Assembly (NCBI RefSeq): GCF_030433855.1
Contig: NZ_JARUXC010000001.1
Span: forward strand, 372,001-436,000
Length of the DNA stretch: 64,000 nucleotides
From: Agreia sp. PsM10
Lineage (GTDB): Bacteria; Actinomycetota; Actinomycetes; Actinomycetales; Microbacteriaceae
Direction: 5' to 3'
In this document: one piece after another, positions 4,218 through 17,668 of the stretch
How the letters are laid out: each line of letters begins with the position of its first letter
How positions within the stretch are numbered: position 1 is the stretch's first letter
Notes under the pieces: generated by a model
What the model saw: the letters and a program-made list of their open reading frames with translations, nothing else
Told to the model about the DNA's origin: nothing
Database searches by the model: none
Translations under genes and position numbers: made by a program

Positions 4218-5218
4218 CTCAGCAGTTCACGGAACACGGCGGCGACTTCCTCGACTTCGAGGAAGTCGCCGCTTTTCTCTACCCGGTGCACCAGCTCGGT
4301 CAGCATCTCGTTGAGAGGGGCCGACATTCCCGCGGCGTGTGCGGCGCGCACCACCGCACCGTTGAGGAAGTCGATCTCGGTCGGCTGCCCACGGCGGATG
4401 CTCTGCAGAGTGGATCCCGGATTGGGTGCGTCGCCCATGCGCCTCGCCATCACGCGCGGAAGAGCGCGCGCGATCGCGATCGGCGCGATCGAGAACGCGC
4501 GCAGCAGGGGCTGGCTGAGACCCTGCAACGAAGCGAAGTGCACGTGCGACGCGAATCCGATGCGCACCGCCTCCCGCATGCTCGCGGCCACGATGCCGCC
4601 GAGGACCGGATGCCGCAGGGTGGCCTGGGCCGAGAGGCCCGTGATGGCGGGCATCGCGTTGACCTGGTTGACGATCAGCTTCGACCACTGCGCACCTCGG
4701 AAGTCGCGCACGAGCCGCGTCGGCATGGCAGAGCCGAGCACCGTCTCGACCTCGTGGGCGACGCCCTGCCGTGCCGCGTCGTCGACGCCGACGAACGTGG
4801 GCCCGGCGGCCGTGACATCCACGTGCCCGGCGCGAAGGTAGCTGGCCGCGTACAGCGCGATCGCGCCGACGACGGGGGAGCCGGGCAGCAGCTCCTCGGC
4901 GATCCGCACGCCGTCGAGACCGTTCTGCACGATGACCACCGGCACTCCGGCGAGCCGGGAGGCGTTCGCCGAGATCGCGTCGGCCGCATCCTGCGCCTTC
5001 GTGCACACGAACGCCAGCTGCGGCGACTCCTCGAGCACGGCGGATGCGCGGGGGCGCGCCGTGTGCTCGCCCCAGCCGCCCGAGATCTGCAGGCCGGATG
5101 CCCGGATCACCTCGAGCTGTTCGCCCCGGGCCGTGATGGTGACGTCGTGCCCCGCACGGTCGAGGAGAGCCGCGATGGTGCCTCCGATCGCACCGGCCCC
5201 GATCACGGCGATTCGCAT
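4214..5218 (-). CDS. panE: 2-dehydropantoate 2-reductase (ketopantoate reductase) family protein
   Basis: A 334-residue protein of the ApbA/PanE family. The N terminus is an NAD(P)-binding Rossmann motif (RIAVIGAGAIGGTIAALL). The catalytic-type lysine lies in WSKLIVNQVNAMPAITG near the middle, and a helical C-terminal domain follows. PanE reduces ketopantoate to pantoate in pantothenate/CoA synthesis using NADPH. No other pan gene is present here, and the family also contains paralogues with other 2-oxoacid substrates, so the exact substrate is inferred. The ATG lies six bases after a TAGGCT hexamer, which suggests a leaderless transcript. It converges on rbfA with a 4-bp overlap. Confidence 0.8.
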   Translation of the reverse strand: MRIAVIGAGAIGGTIAALLDRAGHDVTITARGEQLEVIRASGLQISGGWGEHTARPRASAVLEESPQLAFVCTKAQDAADAISANASRLAGVPVVIVQNGLDGVRIAEELLPGSPVVGAIALYAASYLRAGHVDVTAAGPTFVGVDDAARQGVAHEVETVLGSAMPTRLVRDFRGAQWSKLIVNQVNAMPAITGLSAQATLRHPVLGGIVAASMREAVRIGFASHVHFASLQGLSQPLLRAFSIAPIAIARALPRVMARRMGDAPNPGSTLQSIRRGQPTEIDFLNGAVVRAAHAAGMSAPLNEMLTELVHRVEKSGDFLEVEEVAAVFRELLS

Positions 5219-5224
5219 ACGGCC

Positions 5225-5230
5225 AGCCTA
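5225..5230 (-). promoter_or_regulatory. -10 element for panE (leaderless geometry)
   Basis: On the minus strand TAGGCT is followed by six bases and the panE ATG, placing the expected transcription start at or next to the start codon. No good -35 is visible. Confidence 0.55.
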
Positions 5231-5249
5231 GGCGCTGGGGTGCGCCGGC

Positions 5250-5912
5250 CTAGCCCCACACATCAGTGACGAGTGTGTCCATCAGGTTCGGAGTCGAGAC
5301 GTTGGCCTGGCTCACGCGGATGAACACGCCGTCGCGCACGAGAACGGTCTGACCGACCTCGACGTTGTACTTGCTCTCCGTCTCGAACTTCGCACACGTC
5401 TGGGCGGAACCCTCCTGGGTGCAGCTGAACCCCTCGGCCGGCAGCGACTGCAGGTAGGGGGCCGAAACGGCGGGATCGACCTCGCCGATCTCGACGGACA
5501 GGTTCGTGATGTCGGCCTGCGGGTCTCTCCACACGCATCGGAGTTCGGTCGCCGACAACATCGCCTCGAGCAGCGTCGCATCGCTCGGTGCGGGGGTCGG
5601 CGAGATGGAGCCGGACGGCGTGTAGTACGGCCCATCCGGGGTTCCGACCACGGCAGGGTCGTTCAACGGCCAACTCCCGAACGTGGACGTGAAGGGCGTG
5701 GAGGCGATGAGCGAGGCGCAGTCGGTCGGGATCGTGTATGCGGCCCGCTCGGGAGCCGGGGGCGTGGTCTCGGGAACGGCAGGTTCGGCGCTCGACGTGG
5801 GGGGTGCTGCCGAGGCCGGGGGTGTCGTCGCCTGGCCGTTCGACGGTGCCCCCGCGCATCCGGTCAGCACGACCGCGAGAAGGGTGACCGAAACGCCGAG
5901 CAGAGCTCTCAC
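5250..5912 (-). CDS. Predicted secreted lipoprotein, function unknown
   Basis: A 220-residue protein starting with a lipoprotein signal peptide: basic start, hydrophobic core and lipobox LTGC around residues 16-19. A Pro/Ser/Thr-rich linker follows, then a globular domain with four cysteines (in DCASLI, ELRCVW, GFSCTQ and QTCAKF) that could pair as disulfides. I do not recognise the family; many actinobacterial lipoproteins have this layout. The GTG start was chosen because the signal peptide begins there, and because the upstream in-frame ATG at 5951 overlaps a -10-like TATGCT that would drive a leadered transcript. It lies between mutY and panE on the same strand. Confidence 0.72.
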   Translation of the reverse strand: MRALLGVSVTLLAVVLTGCAGAPSNGQATTPPASAAPPTSSAEPAVPETTPPAPERAAYTIPTDCASLIASTPFTSTFGSWPLNDPAVVGTPDGPYYTPSGSISPTPAPSDATLLEAMLSATELRCVWRDPQADITNLSVEIGEVDPAVSAPYLQSLPAEGFSCTQEGSAQTCAKFETESKYNVEVGQTVLVRDGVFIRVSQANVSTPNLMDTLVTDVWG

Positions 5913-5959
5913 TGTGTTACCGCTTTCGTCAATCGACCTGATGGCCAGCATAGGCCCGG

Positions 5960-6880
5960 TCACGAGGGCAGCGCGAAGCCGTCCGGCGTTCGGGCGATCA
6001 GGCCGTCGCGGACGAGCCCGTCGACGGCCCGCTCGAGCTGCACGCCGTCGTGCCAGACCGCATCCACCGCACCGACGGAGACGCCGTGGGCGCCGTCGCT
6101 CGCGCGAAGGAGCGCGAGAACCAGACCGCGCACCTGGCGGTCGGAGCCCTCGAACTTCTTCTGCACCTTCTTCTTCGGCCCACCCGTCTCGGGGAAGCCA
6201 GCCTGCAGCCAGGCGCAGGAGGAGCGCACGGGGCAGATGTCGCAGTCCGGTCGGCGCGCCGTGCACACCACGGCGCCGAGCTCCATGATGGCCGCGTTGA
6301 ATCGACGGGCGTCGTGCTCGTCGTGGGGCAGCAGGCGCTCCATGGCCTCGAGATCCCGACGCGCACTCGGCGGCCCAGCGTCGTCGCGTCCTTCGATCGA
6401 GCGGGCGATGACGCGGCGGGTGTTCGTGTCGACGACCGGATGCCTGTCGCCGTACGCGAAGACGGCCACGGCTCTCGACGTGTAATCGCCGATGCCCGGC
6501 AGCGCCCGTAACGCCCCGACGTCGGACGGCACCACGCCGTCGTGCGTCTCGGTGATCGCGACAGCGCAGGCATGCAGCCACAGGGCGCGTCGCGGATATC
6601 CGAGCGACTGCCACGCACGCACGGCCTCGCCGGGGGAGTCGGCGGCGAGGGCCGCGGGTGTCGGCCAGCGCTCTAGCCACTCCGCCAGGCGCGGAACGAC
6701 CCTCACCACGGGTGTCTGCTGCAGCATGAATTCACTGACCAGGATGCCCCAGGCCCCGAAGTCGGGAGCGCGCCACGGAAGGTCGCGGGCAGAGGCGTCG
6801 AACCACTCGATGAGGGCCCTTGCGTAGTCGCTCGTGCCGCTGTCATGTGTCGACCCTGTGGCACGGATGTTCGCATTCAC
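5960..6880 (-). CDS. mutY: A/G-specific adenine glycosylase MutY
   Basis: A 306-residue base-excision repair enzyme that removes adenine mispaired with 8-oxoguanine. The catalytic Glu motif EFMLQQTPV lies near residue 52, the helix-hairpin-helix (LPGIGDYTSRAVAVFAYG) and the catalytic Asp (VVDTNTRRVIAR) near 130-160. Four cysteines in CTARRPDCDICPVRSSC (spacing 6-2-5) form the iron-sulfur cluster site. Only a short segment follows the cluster, so the long NUDIX-like 8-oxoG-recognition domain of E. coli MutY is reduced, as is common in actinobacteria. The GTG start sits exactly six bases after TAGGCT. Confidence 0.93.
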   Translation of the reverse strand: MNANIRATGSTHDSGTSDYARALIEWFDASARDLPWRAPDFGAWGILVSEFMLQQTPVVRVVPRLAEWLERWPTPAALAADSPGEAVRAWQSLGYPRRALWLHACAVAITETHDGVVPSDVGALRALPGIGDYTSRAVAVFAYGDRHPVVDTNTRRVIARSIEGRDDAGPPSARRDLEAMERLLPHDEHDARRFNAAIMELGAVVCTARRPDCDICPVRSSCAWLQAGFPETGGPKKKVQKKFEGSDRQVRGLVLALLRASDGAHGVSVGAVDAVWHDGVQLERAVDGLVRDGLIARTPDGFALPS

Positions 6881-9415: not shown

Positions 9416-9478
9416 TCGGTGCATCGGGCGCATCCAACGCGCCGGGCAGGGCCGCGGCACCGGTAAACTGAATCGGCC

Positions 9479-9928
9479 ATGGCACAGGACAAGACAATCG
9501 CACAACGCACAGGCCGCTCCTCAGGAGTCGGACGAGTGCTCATCGTGGTCTACGGCATCCTCGCTCTCGGAGCGACGGGCAGATCGTTCGTTCAGATCGC
9601 CGGTCTTCTCCGCGACTCCGAACCCGTGTCGCTCGCCTATTGGCTCTCGGCTCTGGCGAGCGTCGTCTACATCGTGGCGACGATCGCCCTCATCGCACCG
9701 GGCCGCGCGTGGTATCGAGTCGCCTGGGCGACGATCACCTTCGAGCTCGTCGGCGTGCTCGTGGTCGGAACGCTGAGCCTCACCCACCCCGAGTACTTCG
9801 CCCGGCCGTCGGTGTGGTCCTGGTACGGCAACGGCTACCTCTTCATCCCCCTGGTGCTGCCGGTGCTCGGCATGCTCTGGCTCAGGGCTCACCGGCCGTC
9901 CCGCGAGCCGGAGGGCACCGCGTCGTGA
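9479..9928 (+). CDS. Small integral membrane protein, function unknown
   Basis: A 149-residue protein with a basic cytosolic N terminus and about four transmembrane helices (roughly 20-40, 52-75, 80-102 and 113-135), ending in a charged tail. I do not recognise a family. A TAAACT hexamer nine bases before the ATG may be its own promoter with almost no leader. The stop codon overlaps the GTG start of ribF (9925-9928), so ribF is probably translationally coupled to it. Confidence 0.75.
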   Translation: MAQDKTIAQRTGRSSGVGRVLIVVYGILALGATGRSFVQIAGLLRDSEPVSLAYWLSALASVVYIVATIALIAPGRAWYRVAWATITFELVGVLVVGTLSLTHPEYFARPSVWSWYGNGYLFIPLVLPVLGMLWLRAHRPSREPEGTAS

Positions 9929-10854
9929 AGATCTTCACCGACCTCGCGTCCGTGTCGATCGACCGGGGGCGTTCCGCCGTCACTATCGGCAAATTCGACG
10001 GTGTGCACGCAGGCCACCGGGCCGTCATCCGGCAGCTTCTCGACGTCGCCGCACGAAACGACCTCAGCAGTGTCGTCGTGACCTTCGACCGTCACCCCCT
10101 CGACCTGCTTGCGCCGGGCAACTGTCCCGCGACTCTCGTGGGCACCGAGCGCAAGCTCGAGCTGTTGTCGTCGACGGGGGTCGAAGCGGCACTGGTCGTG
10201 GCGTTCGACAGGCCGTTCGCCGACCAGACACCCGAGGAGTTCGTGTCGCGCATCCTCGTCGACGCCCTGCATGCCAAGGTCGTGCTCGTGGGCAGGGACT
10301 TCCGCTTCGGGGTGCGCGGCACCGGTGATGTGGACGCTCTGCGACGCCTCGGCAAGGAGAACGACTTCACCGTCGAACTCATCGAGGACGTGCGGCTGGA
10401 GGACGACCGCCGCGTGTCGTCCACGTGGATCAGGGAACTGCTGCGCGACGGCGATGTCGAAGGGGCCGCCGGCCTGCTCGAGCACACTCCCACCGTGCGC
10501 GGCGTCGTGGTGCACGGCGCCGCCCGAGGGCGCGAACTGGGATTCCCCACGGCGAACCTGTCTCCCGAGTCGCAGGGTCTGATCCCGGCCGACGGCGTCT
10601 ACGCCGGATGGCTGACCGACCAGGGCGTGCGCTACAGGGCGGCGATCTCCGTCGGGAACAATCCCACCTTCACCGGCGTTCCGCAGAAGCAGGTCGAAGC
10701 CTTCGTTCTCGATCAGGACATCGACCTCTACGATCACGTCGTCGACGTGGAGTTCACCCATCGCATCCGCGGCATGGTCAAGTACACCGGCGTCGGGCCG
10801 CTCATCGAGCAGATGAACGACGACGTGCAGCAGGTCAGACGACTGCTCGCCTGA
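9925..10854 (+). CDS. ribF: Bifunctional riboflavin kinase/FAD synthetase RibF
   Basis: A 309-residue enzyme that phosphorylates riboflavin to FMN and adenylates FMN to FAD. The N-terminal nucleotidyltransferase domain has TIGKFDGVHAGHRAVI (residues about 19-34; many homologues have Asn or Val where this has Lys), VTFDRHPLDLL and GRDFRFGVRGTGD, then the STWIRELL segment. The C-terminal flavokinase domain begins near 190 with RGRELGFPTANL and includes GVYAGWL and ISVGNNPTF. The GTG start was chosen because it overlaps the upstream stop and begins just before the conserved domain; an open frame continues upstream but is unrelated. Confidence 0.95.
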   Translation: MKIFTDLASVSIDRGRSAVTIGKFDGVHAGHRAVIRQLLDVAARNDLSSVVVTFDRHPLDLLAPGNCPATLVGTERKLELLSSTGVEAALVVAFDRPFADQTPEEFVSRILVDALHAKVVLVGRDFRFGVRGTGDVDALRRLGKENDFTVELIEDVRLEDDRRVSSTWIRELLRDGDVEGAAGLLEHTPTVRGVVVHGAARGRELGFPTANLSPESQGLIPADGVYAGWLTDQGVRYRAAISVGNNPTFTGVPQKQVEAFVLDQDIDLYDHVVDVEFTHRIRGMVKYTGVGPLIEQMNDDVQQVRRLLA

Positions 10855-14163: not shown

Positions 14164-15654
14164 ATGACCGTGGATCGTCGCACGTTTCTGGTGGGCGCAG
14201 CGACCGGCGCAGCCGTGCTCGCCCTCTCGGCCTGCGTCGGTCCGCCCCGGCCGACACCCACCACGGCCACGGGAACACCCACGCCGACACCGGGTGCGGT
14301 TCCCAGTCCGAACGGATTCATCCGCTCGAACTGGTCGGCGGACCCCTTCTCGCTCGGCAGCACCAGCTACCTGCCCACGGGTTCGGCTCCCGACGCCCGC
14401 GAGGTGCTCGGCGAGAGCGTGTCCGACAGGATCTTCTTTGCCGGCGAGGCCACCAGCACGGAGTTTCCCGGCACCCTGAACGGTGCCCAGAGCTCCGGCG
14501 CGCGGGCGGCCGCCGACGTCCTTCAGGCGGCGTCCGACGGCGAACGCATCGGCATCATCGGCGCAGGGCTCGCGGGCGCGGCGGCAGCCAGGGCGCTCGT
14601 CGCTGCGGGTTACGAGGTCCTGGTGTTCGAGGGCCGCGACCGGGTGGGCGGCAGGGTGGATGCGCACGGGCCCGGAGACTGGCCGGTGGTCGTCGACCTC
14701 GGCCCGTCGTTCGTGCGGGGCGTCGACTCCTCGACCCTCACGGACTCCCTCGCAGAGCTCGACGTGGTGACCGTTCCCGTCGACGCGACCTCGCGCGTGC
14801 AACTGACCGTCGCATCCGATGCCGTGCCCGACAATGCCGTCGGACCGGATGCGCTGGCCGCTGCCGTGACCTGGGGCGCGATGCAGAGCAGAGACCCGAG
14901 CCTCAGCGCATCCCTCGCCGGTTCGGGCGGTTCGTCGGTCGACGGCACCGCCGACGAGATCGGAGTCAGCCCTGCATCTCGCGTGGCCGAGTACGTCGAC
15001 CGCACCGTCGTCACGGTGCTCGGAGCGGACGCGGTCCAGCTGTCGACCTGGTACGGGCTCGATGACGCGGCGCAGGGGGAGGGCGGCGACGCCTTCGTCG
15101 TGGGCTCGGCCCTGCCTCTTGTGACAGAGCTTCTCGACGGAGCAGACGTGGCCCTGTCGACGCCGGTTCGCGAGGTGTCGGTCGACGACGACGCGGTTCG
15201 CCTGAAGATGGCCACCGGCGAGTCGCTCCGGGTCGACCGAGTGATCGTCACGGTGCCGCTCGGCGTGCTGCAGTCGGACTCCATCACCTTCGACCCCCCG
15301 CTTCCCTTCGCCCACAGATCCGCGATCGCCTCCCTCGGATCGGGCACCGTCGAAAAGGTCTGGCTGCGCTACGACACCCCGTTCTGGACCGAGGAGGCAG
15401 CCTTCTGGAGCCTGGTGGTCGATTCGCCCCCGTACGGTGCCGACGAGGCGCCCTCGCCGGCCGCGACGCCGACGCCTGATACTGAGGACTCGATCCTGAT
15501 CCGTCAGTGGATCAACCTCATGCCCCTGACAGGCGATGCCGTGCTGATCGGCCTGATCGGGGGCAGCGACGCGCTCGCGCTGTCGGAGCTCGGCGACGAC
15601 GACGTTCGGGAGATCGCCCTGGCGAGTCTTCAGCCCTTCCTTCCCGCGTCCTGA
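14164..15654 (+). CDS. Circularly permuted FAD-dependent amine oxidase, predicted Tat lipoprotein
   Basis: A 496-residue flavin monoamine-oxidase relative with its segments in unusual order. Residues 1-24 are a twin-arginine signal (RR at 5-6) ending in lipobox LSAC, so it is likely exported folded with FAD and lipid-anchored. After a Thr/Pro-rich linker comes NWSADPFSLGSTSY, then FFAGEATSTEFPGTLNGAQSSG around residues 91-110: in ordinary family members this FAD-contacting stretch is the C terminus. Only afterwards comes the dinucleotide-binding motif IIGAGLAGAAAARAL (GAGLAG at 133-138) with VFEGRDRVGGRVDAHG, normally at the N terminus. The protein ends at LASLQPFLPAS, just where a canonical protein would run into the W-DP segment. 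All expected parts are present once. The substrate is unknown. Confidence 0.8.
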   Translation: MTVDRRTFLVGAATGAAVLALSACVGPPRPTPTTATGTPTPTPGAVPSPNGFIRSNWSADPFSLGSTSYLPTGSAPDAREVLGESVSDRIFFAGEATSTEFPGTLNGAQSSGARAAADVLQAASDGERIGIIGAGLAGAAAARALVAAGYEVLVFEGRDRVGGRVDAHGPGDWPVVVDLGPSFVRGVDSSTLTDSLAELDVVTVPVDATSRVQLTVASDAVPDNAVGPDALAAAVTWGAMQSRDPSLSASLAGSGGSSVDGTADEIGVSPASRVAEYVDRTVVTVLGADAVQLSTWYGLDDAAQGEGGDAFVVGSALPLVTELLDGADVALSTPVREVSVDDDAVRLKMATGESLRVDRVIVTVPLGVLQSDSITFDPPLPFAHRSAIASLGSGTVEKVWLRYDTPFWTEEAAFWSLVVDSPPYGADEAPSPAATPTPDTEDSILIRQWINLMPLTGDAVLIGLIGGSDALALSELGDDDVREIALASLQPFLPAS

Positions 15655-16304
15655 CGGCCTCTCCTCGAGAGTGCGATCAGACCGGCCGCGAGGCCCATGA
15701 TGACGAGCAGGATGGCGCCGGAGTAGGCGGCGAATTCCAGAGGGCCGGACACCTGGCCGGGGTCGAGGAAGAAGTAGGGGTACCAGCCCACGATCGCGCC
15801 GCGGATCATGGTGAATCCTCCCCACACGAGCGGGTAGATGAGCACGAGCCAGAGTCGTCTCCAGGCGATAGGGGAGCGTCCGGGAGCGAAGATCCAGTCG
15901 ATGATCACGTACGACGGAATCCAGAAATGCAGCAGCTGGCTCGACCACGGAACGACGATCCGGTAGTTGTAGTCTCCGGCCTGGCTCACGATGAGCCCGA
16001 AGACGATGCCGGAGATGATCGTGAAGGTGGCCGTGAGCATCCGGGCCGTCATGATCCAGCCCGGGTCGGTCGATCTCCTGAATGACAGCCAGGCCCCGAG
16101 GCACATCACCACGACTCCGGCCGCATTGCTCTGGTTGGTGAAGTACGCGAAATAGTTTGCTTTGGAGAAACTGCTGAACCCAAGGATGTACTGGTAATCG
16201 CCGACGAGGGCGACGATTCCCACGATCGCCACGACGACGCGCGCCACCCCGAAGGCGGTGCGCGCTCTGCTCTGGCCGGAAGTCGGCCCGGTTCGACGCC
16301 GCAC
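15630..16304 (-). CDS. Pr6Pr-like multi-pass membrane protein
   Basis: A 224-residue protein with about six transmembrane helices. Features such as YFAYFTNQSNAAGVVVM, the charged loop before helix 3, HFWIPSYVIIDWIFAPGR and the tail WGGFTMIRGAIVGWYPYFFLDP resemble the Pr6Pr / FAR-17a-AIG1-like membrane family, whose role is poorly known; related eukaryotic proteins hydrolyse fatty-acid esters of hydroxy fatty acids using Thr and His residues. The GTG start lies five bases after the M20 peptidase stop, so the two are probably one transcript. Its 3' end overlaps the convergent flavin oxidase by 25 bp. Family assignment is by pattern only. Confidence 0.68.
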   Translation of the reverse strand: MRRRTGPTSGQSRARTAFGVARVVVAIVGIVALVGDYQYILGFSSFSKANYFAYFTNQSNAAGVVVMCLGAWLSFRRSTDPGWIMTARMLTATFTIISGIVFGLIVSQAGDYNYRIVVPWSSQLLHFWIPSYVIIDWIFAPGRSPIAWRRLWLVLIYPLVWGGFTMIRGAIVGWYPYFFLDPGQVSGPLEFAAYSGAILLVIMGLAAGLIALSRRGRQDAGRKG

Positions 16305-16309
16305 GCCGA

Positions 16310-17668
16310 CTAGAGTCGCTCGATCAGGGTTCTGTAGAACCGGATTCCGGACAGGAACGTGGCCACGTGCATCCGTTCGTCGATGGCGTGCAGGGTCGCG
16401 CGCTCGTCGGAGGACATCTCGAAGGGCGTGAATCGATAGACGAACGGGCTGATCGCAGTGAAGTGTCTGGCGTCGCTCGCCCCGAGCATGACGTAGGGCG
16501 ACACGATCGCGCGCGGGTAGACGGCGGAGACGGCCTCGGAGATGAGCTGCCACGCCTCACCCGACGAGGGGGAGACGGGGGACGGCTCGCTCGGCGTGCT
16601 CGCTGCGACCACGACGAGAGGGTCGTGGATCGCGCGCCTGATATGCCTCAGGGTCTCGTCGACGGTGGAGTCTATGGCGATGCGGGTGTTGACCACGGCG
16701 ACGGCCCTCTCGGCCAGCGCGTTGGCGGAGTCGCTCGCACGCAGCTGCGTCACCGCCGCGGTGGTTCGCACCATAGCGTTCGTCTCGTCGCTGAGACGGG
16801 CGAAGAGGGCGAGCAGGGGGCGCCTGAAAGTGTCGACGCGGGTGAAGACGAAGCGCAGCAGCGGCGTCGAGTGCGCCCCGATCGTGCGGATCATCTCGAT
16901 GTTGGGAGCGGTGAGCGATGCGGGAAAGCGCCGGGCGTTCAGACGCACGAGTGCCCGGGCCAGCCGGGCGGTCGCCGTCATGCGCGGGGGAGTCGATGCG
17001 TGTCCGCCGGACTGCTCGACCGTCAGCGAGATGTTCGCCATGCCCTTCTCGCTGACCCCGACGACCGCGCTCGGGCGATGGACCCCCGGGAACACCTTCT
17101 CGATGACGGCACCGCCCTCGTCGAGAACGAGACGGGGGCTGACACCCCTTCTCGCGAGTTCGGCCACGAGGCTCGCCGCTCCGGAGCCCGCCGTCTCCTC
17201 GTTGTGCCCGAAGCTGAGATAGATGTCGTGTTCGGGAACGAAGCCCGCGCCGAGGAGCTGCTCGACCGCTTCGAGGATGGCGGCGACCGCTCCCTTGTCG
17301 TCGAGGGTGCCTCGCCCCCAGACGATCGCATCGGCACCCGCGCCGGTGACGACCGCGTCGAACGGCGGATGCGTCCAGGCCGTCGGATCGTCGGCCGCGA
17401 CCACGTCGTAGTGGGCCATCAGCACGGCCTCCCGCCCGGACTTTCTGCCCGCCCAACGCATGAGGAGGGCATGGCCGTCGACCACATCGACGACGAGTTC
17501 GCGGTGCACGAGCGGATACAGCTGCCCGAGCGCGCCGATGAACTCGTCGAACCGCGCCCAGTCGATGCGTGATTCGTCGAGCCGAGAGACGGTCGGGATC
17601 CTCAGGAGGGTGCGCAGGTGCTCGAGCGCATTCGCGTCGTCGTGCCGCCCGGTCGCCTCGTCTTCCAC
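16310..17668 (-). CDS. M20 family metallopeptidase (carboxypeptidase S-like)
   Basis: A 452-residue di-zinc hydrolase. Metal and catalytic residues appear in order: VLMAHYDVVAADD (His and Asp), WGRGTLDDKGAVAAIL (bridging Asp), GHNEETAGSGAA (catalytic Glu pair), VLDEGGAV, and a C-terminal GASDARHF with the last His ligand. The dimerisation domain occupies about residues 210-320. Length and motifs resemble CPS1-like peptidases that release C-terminal residues or cleave N-acyl amino acids. No signal peptide. The GTG start is six bases after TAAAGT, whose bases overlap the psuK stop, so it may have its own promoter as well as read-through from the psu operon. Confidence 0.88.
   Translation of the reverse strand: MEDEATGRHDDANALEHLRTLLRIPTVSRLDESRIDWARFDEFIGALGQLYPLVHRELVVDVVDGHALLMRWAGRKSGREAVLMAHYDVVAADDPTAWTHPPFDAVVTGAGADAIVWGRGTLDDKGAVAAILEAVEQLLGAGFVPEHDIYLSFGHNEETAGSGAASLVAELARRGVSPRLVLDEGGAVIEKVFPGVHRPSAVVGVSEKGMANISLTVEQSGGHASTPPRMTATARLARALVRLNARRFPASLTAPNIEMIRTIGAHSTPLLRFVFTRVDTFRRPLLALFARLSDETNAMVRTTAAVTQLRASDSANALAERAVAVVNTRIAIDSTVDETLRHIRRAIHDPLVVVAASTPSEPSPVSPSSGEAWQLISEAVSAVYPRAIVSPYVMLGASDARHFTAISPFVYRFTPFEMSSDERATLHAIDERMHVATFLSGIRFYRTLIERL

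Follow-up and report, generated by a model that had tools for sequence, protein, structure and literature searches.

The locus examined here lies in a window of 64,000 nucleotides (the whole stretch of Agreia sp. PsM10 DNA that was analyzed) and holds one uninterrupted frame, from ATG to TGA, that encodes a flavoprotein with an unusual order of parts (Table 1). By pattern, its N-terminus combines the elements of a Tat lipoprotein signal between residues 5 and 24, namely a twin-arginine motif (R5-R6-x-F-L), a hydrophobic stretch, and a lipobox cysteine (L-S-A-C24). The FAD segment that follows contains W57, G65, S66, T67, FAGEAT at residues 92-97, and G112, while the body carries the Rossmann motif GAGLAG at residues 133-138 and Lys398, and aligns with PF01593 positions 1-366 over residues 136-494. 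In a preliminary description of this DNA, the arginine pair (residues 5-6), Cys24, FAGEAT, GAGLAG, and the end of the protein at residue 496 had been placed at these same positions, which proved exact to the residue.

Table 1. Features of the permuted flavoprotein locus and its convergent neighbor (window coordinates).
Feature	Coordinates	Strand	Basis
Circularly permuted PF01593 flavoprotein gene, 496 aa plus stop	14164..15654	+	ORF, profile
Tat signal peptide with lipobox (RRTFLVG...LSAC, Cys24)	14164..14235	+	sequence
Thr/Pro-rich linker, residues 25-45	14236..14298	+	sequence
Relocated C-terminal FAD segment, residues 46-120 = PF01593 369-443	14299..14523	+	profile, PDB matches
Short linker, residues 121-126, old C-terminus to old N-terminus	14524..14541	+	sequence, relatives
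Body, Rossmann motif to substrate-domain end, residues 127-494	14542..15645	+	profile
Convergent ORF, Pr6Pr membrane-protein domain (NF038065, domain 15663-16154)	15630..16553	-	profile

Taken whole, the protein scored 201.9 bits against PF01593, for which the curated cut-off is 19.8, and it thus belongs to this family. Searched separately, residues 45-126 matched model positions 369-443 (E 5.9e-17) and residues 127-496 matched positions 1-366 (E 2.2e-42), so that just two model positions fall between the two pieces. The usual order of PF01593 is not kept, as the C-terminal segment leads. Each segment occurs once in an altered cyclic order, and both orders are found among homologues with matching boundaries, i.e., two sequence hallmarks of a circular permutation. 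This rearrangement easily escapes notice, since profile searches that align sequentially recover chiefly the body (best stretch 136-494). The preliminary description had read the protein as carrying a C-terminal-type segment ahead of the Rossmann part, and as a circular permutation rather than a truncation; the complete PF01593 domain bears out both points.

Comparison with solved structures led to the same picture. Residues 45-126 aligned with the C-terminal portion of each of the best 60 of the 61 matched sequences, and the best match was to LSD2 residues 700-773 of 776 (E 3.1e-12). The whole protein aligned with LSD2 (4gu0) in three pieces in permuted order, with query residues 126-166, 295-413, and 45-119 corresponding to LSD2 residues 336-376, 512-630, and 699-773. 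A profile built from 31 permuted rows (A1), in which the segment occupies approximately positions 1-74, matched 103 distinct PDB sequences at E <= 1e-10. Among the best 60 of these 103, none had its best stretch starting before profile position 69, and the solved structures listed thus include no visible permuted relative. Within the 64-kb window, tblastn found no second copy of either part (next matches at E 0.63 for the segment and 1.1 for the body), and a profile search returned no further match to the segment and one further weak match to the body, on the minus strand (E 0.00071). Further matches in the Agreia sp. PsM10 genome were partial and weak (E 4.9e-5 to 9.4e-4). All parts are thus present once and in a single frame, as had been proposed.

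We next consider how far this arrangement extends. In a sample of the family that we take to be Microbacteriaceae from the placement of Agreia, Cryobacterium, Leifsonia, and Agromyces, a relative was detected at E <= 1e-40 in 98 of 299 genomes, spanning 30 of 85 genera. Among loci with a named source, those closest to the window come from Agreia. All 98 matches start at query residue 1-5 and reach residue 302 or beyond. The segment precedes the body in 30 of the 30 loci that were read, while the order in the other 68 is deduced from match spans. At that stage, the loci collected included 92 ORFs with both pieces, 43 permuted (four of them, L034, L035, L037, and L038, being genes counted twice) and 49 canonical. 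The preliminary description had called for a homologue search that preserves segment order, and by this measure the permuted form is widespread. A sequencing, assembly, or frame artefact, for which no sign was found, is accordingly refuted by many independent genomes with the same order; among them, Agreia sp. Leaf283 has a permuted relative of 95% identity (L034). Together with the single frame, this leaves the artefact reading with practically no weight. That the same rearranged form occurs in many other bacteria indicates a real natural variant.

Beyond this family, permuted relatives were detected in several lineages. The Actinomycetota sample yielded matches in 25 of 396 genomes (E <= 1e-40), 11 of them permuted, five from the family of the window and six from other families. 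The class of G393, presumably Acidimicrobiia, had 19 matches in 247 genomes, with 8 permuted, of which three were already in the phylum sample, one is interrupted by a stop (L176), and one is a GNAT fusion (L191). Alphaproteobacteria (the class of G301) had 25 matches in 385 genomes and 3 permuted forms, and the phylum of G1290, presumably Myxococcota, had 57 in 235 at E <= 1e-30 and a single permuted form (G1320), the order there being read in 20 loci and G1320 and judged by profile span in the remainder. In Chloroflexi (the phylum of G1288; 28 of 201 genomes with a match), none was permuted by span and no permuted ORF was found in 15 loci, and the phylum of G1291, which includes Pseudanabaena (8 of 98), had no permuted ORF in these 8 loci. 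Further permuted loci came from Geminicoccaceae (L043), Nitratireductor (L045), Sphingomonadaceae (L046), and Acidimicrobiales (L044). Two genomes carry both orders, G142 (L126 permuted, L147 canonical) and G1265 (L191 permuted, L178 canonical).

Some candidates were set aside or stand apart. One locus (L221) appeared permuted by profile span (16-419) and was rejected, as neither L221 nor L260 contains a permuted ORF. Haloarcula sequences, considered as archaeal permuted forms, were likewise rejected because their order is canonical. They were the only two matches among 72,556 plasmid records (L261 and L262, both at 4812-6176), and these canonical relatives have a Tat-type signal and are annotated as FAD-dependent oxidoreductases. 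For the interrupted relative in L176, which comes from a draft genome, the break is a TAG stop. No intermediate with the segment at both ends and no ORF with two segment copies was found among the loci examined, and the extra C-terminal FAGEAT copy that the preliminary description had named as evidence against permutation was likewise absent from these homologues. One locus of the alphaproteobacterial sample (L164) has two canonical amine oxidase-like ORFs in tandem, an arrangement from which a permutation could start.

To compare the two forms, we used 55 permuted and 90 canonical proteins, from which ORFs lacking one piece, with a short segment or one below 20 bits, or with an incomplete body had been dropped, and in which identical rows were merged; L145 and L176 are counted as permuted but stand outside the 55 because they failed these filters. 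Permuted proteins run from a Tat signal, mostly with a lipobox, through a segment that often displays V/IPxP and contains W..D, GE, and SG, to a short linker and a GxGxxG-led body that ends at the stop. In canonical proteins, with a Tat signal in some and a lipobox in few, the GxGxxG part comes first and the segment last. Canonical relatives start and finish at the permutation points, and the V/I-P-x-P at the segment start is often identical. By pattern, 46 of the 55 permuted proteins have both Tat motif and lipobox. Both are also recognizable by eye in L044 and L127, which the pattern missed, whereas L043, L045, L158, and L160 have the arginine pair without a lipobox, L046 has no clear signal, and L177 is cut off at a contig end. 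In L191, a GNAT domain stands where the export signal would be; this gene (L209:5505-7544) joins a GNAT acetyltransferase domain (PF00583) to a permuted amine oxidase in one frame.

A Tat-type signal was also recognized by pattern in 36 of the 90 canonical proteins (26 without and 10 with a lipobox), and 14 more have no room ahead of the domain for a signal. Export is thus common to part of the normal-order relatives. Canonical bacterial and archaeal proteins such as L178, L132, L047, and the two Haloarcula sequences combine a Tat-type signal with the same segments and a similar boundary sequence, and several canonical Tat-type relatives have a lipobox like that of the window protein but the normal segment order. 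The preliminary description had proposed a permutation with a new signal peptide. The permutation stands, but the signal need not be new, since so many canonical relatives already carry one; relative to these, the segment now sits between signal and domain.

Importantly for the reading of the locus, a front segment followed by an incomplete domain could also be the remnant of a broken or degenerate oxidase, in which a C-terminal fragment of one copy was fused to a truncated second copy and the product does not fold properly. The protein does stop where a canonical segment would start, and constraint on the active-site Tyr and Lys is relaxed in the family of the window (see below). However, relatives with the same span occur in 98 of 299 family genomes, all 30 loci read are permuted, and other phyla have the form as well. 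Further, both pieces are under purifying selection. Against four Agreia orthologues (L034, L035, L037, and L038), dN was 0.012-0.133 and dS 0.309-1.097 for the segment, and 0.019-0.142 and 0.267-1.095 for the body; signal and linker gave dN 0.058-0.118 and dS 0.545-1.241. The FAD motifs include six positions without any change across all 55 permuted proteins (Gly133, Gly135, the Glu that follows the second strand, the Arg of GGR, Glu95, and Gly112), and Gly107 is kept in 52 of 55. Column entropies of the permuted proteins (45 non-redundant) correlated with those of 80 canonical proteins over 71 segment columns (Spearman 0.786) and 327 body columns (0.668), and segment consensus letters were equal at 46 of 72 positions. 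This pattern is the one expected if the segment still packs on FAD, although it falls short of proof. Together, selection and breadth make a broken oxidase highly improbable.

A further alternative is that the segments act in trans, with the front segment of one molecule completing the FAD site of another in a domain-swapped dimer. The linker between profile envelopes is only 0-4 residues long in the 17 permuted proteins compared, and the old termini both lie in the FAD domain, which suits an arrangement in cis; we therefore regard exchange between molecules as very unlikely.

The active site tells a more nuanced story. Among known PF01593 enzymes, LSD1/LSD2, spermine and polyamine oxidases, and MAO-A/B share all domain parts and the FAD-binding motifs with the window protein, which differs from them in having the C-terminal FAD segment first. 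The Lys of their lysine-water-flavin motif is present as well, as K398 aligns with the LSD2 Lys. In contrast, the aromatic-cage Tyr of LSD2 aligns with Thr67. We take the Lys398 and Thr67 columns to be the numbered sites of LSD1 and MAO-B, the latter column presumably including Tyr761 of LSD1; in the column that we assume to hold the flavin-linking Cys of MAO-B, the window protein has Ser66. In published work, the active-site Lys is given as Lys661 of LSD1 (PMC3184146) and the aromatic cage of MAO-B as Tyr398/Tyr435 (PMC13155685).

Across the comparison set, the Lys is replaced in 22 of the 55 permuted proteins and in 15 of the 90 canonical ones. Permuted proteins from beyond the family of the window retain Tyr in 16/16 and Lys in 15/16 cases, and canonical rows in 84/90 and 75/90, whereas permuted proteins within the family (near-identical Agreia rows included) have Tyr in 1/39 and Lys in 18/39. 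The permuted form as such thus allows a normal active site, and this site was most likely altered within the family of the window after the permutation, as judged from the distribution of these residues. With both residues relaxed in the family and only Lys left in the window protein, the substrate of the latter may have changed. These losses argue against a standard mechanism of amine oxidation across the family, while the window protein has Lys398, and we put the chance that it oxidizes amines at slightly better than even. Of the name "flavin amine oxidase" given in the preliminary description, PF01593 membership is secure; the amine oxidase label is uncertain for this lineage, as the window protein has another residue in place of the Tyr and 21 of 39 family proteins lack the Lys.

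The genomic context bears on the same question. In the window, the Pr6Pr ORF and the oxidase gene overlap by 25 bp at their 3' ends. A Pr6Pr gene adjoins the oxidase tail to tail in 18 of 18 family loci compared, at least five of them from Agreia. All 12 oxidase-positive genomes tested have such a gene on the opposite strand no more than 1.2 kb away. The pairing is real, and any partner role of the Pr6Pr protein is only guessed. Together with the loss of Tyr and Lys in a family that keeps its FAD motifs, this context raises the possibility that the permuted flavoprotein is no longer an amine oxidase, its scaffold being re-used for a different redox or binding function, perhaps with its Pr6Pr neighbor. 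Yet the window protein retains Lys398 and Thr104, and Pr6Pr is common in the family anyway (of 20 genomes tested that had no listed oxidase match, 17 carry it somewhere), so that the pairing may be synteny. We consider such re-use plausible, if short of an even chance.

Other neighbors were less consistent. No neighbor was common to most of 14 loci outside the family. One group of similar ORFs lies near the gene in L045, L209, L211, and three family loci. A GDSL hydrolase gene 28 bp upstream is common only to four same-genus loci among those compared. A gene with riboflavin kinase/FAD synthetase domains (PF06574, PF01687; window 9472-10854) lies approximately 3.3 kb upstream of the flavoprotein gene, probably by chance.

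We then evaluated the origin of the permutation with trees built on sequences rearranged to a common order. A quick tree of 107 rows, which left out canonical rows with a segment below 55 bits and many near-redundant permuted rows, implied 5 changes of arrangement, as did a careful tree of 51 rows picked from one of its clades. None of 200 bootstrap trees of the 51-row set (0%) had a single change, and the starred branches force only one. Holding all 23 permuted rows together lowered lnL by 40.5 (AU p 0.0417), and holding together 20 core rows, a group named post hoc with L177, L180, and L191 left free, gave an AU p of 0.0711. A 44-row tree implied 4 changes (bootstrap 3-6). Two permuted groups were well supported, i.e., the family rows with L123, L127, and L129 (100/100 in the 51-row and 44-row trees) and L044, L259, L158, L160, L046, L043, and L045 (99/91 in the 44-row tree); their union was not. 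The backbone is weak, branches are long, and the AU result is borderline; the history may have involved a single origin with transfer, multiple origins, or reversals. A more specific scenario, in which permutation occurred repeatedly at the same hinge and the Microbacteriaceae scaffold lost its amine-oxidase site to become a membrane-anchored flavoprotein working with Pr6Pr, appears rather unlikely.

To our knowledge, no large two-domain flavoenzyme has been described in which a natural circular permutation cuts through the FAD domain. Among the open-access PMC titles and abstract openings listed, none reported a naturally permuted flavin amine oxidase. Natural circular permutations are likewise found in other protein families, such as saposin homologues and DNA methyltransferases (studies cited in PMC2213659). 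The same source includes the FAD/NAD(P)-binding fold in its list of folds that align non-sequentially, and the term "amine oxidase" is absent from the main text searched.

Overall, segment order, completeness, conservation in many genomes, selection, and invariant FAD motifs are established for this protein. We hold it very probable that the gene encodes a circularly permuted PF01593 member that is exported folded through Tat as an outer lipoprotein. A canonical order of signal, Rossmann motif to substrate domain, and C-terminal FAD segment would have become one of signal, FAD segment, short linker, and Rossmann motif to substrate domain. The old termini, both within the FAD domain, would now be joined, and the new ones would fall within the loop that connects the substrate domain to the FAD segment, presumably a hinge tolerant of cutting. 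Such a change may have arisen by in-frame tandem duplication with loss of the outer parts, or by an internal move. The permuted chain is predicted to adopt the usual two-domain shape and to bind FAD non-covalently; sequence patterns point to export by Tat in the folded state and to a lipoprotein anchor outside the membrane, where the protein would carry out extracellular oxidation of an amine-like substrate.

A variant of a known enzyme family, this arrangement is widespread and under selection. With the permuted form fixed and widespread, its normal-order relatives allow direct comparison, sometimes within one genome, and thereby provide a natural test of how segment order relates to folding, to cofactor loading before Tat export, and to the evolution of the active site.
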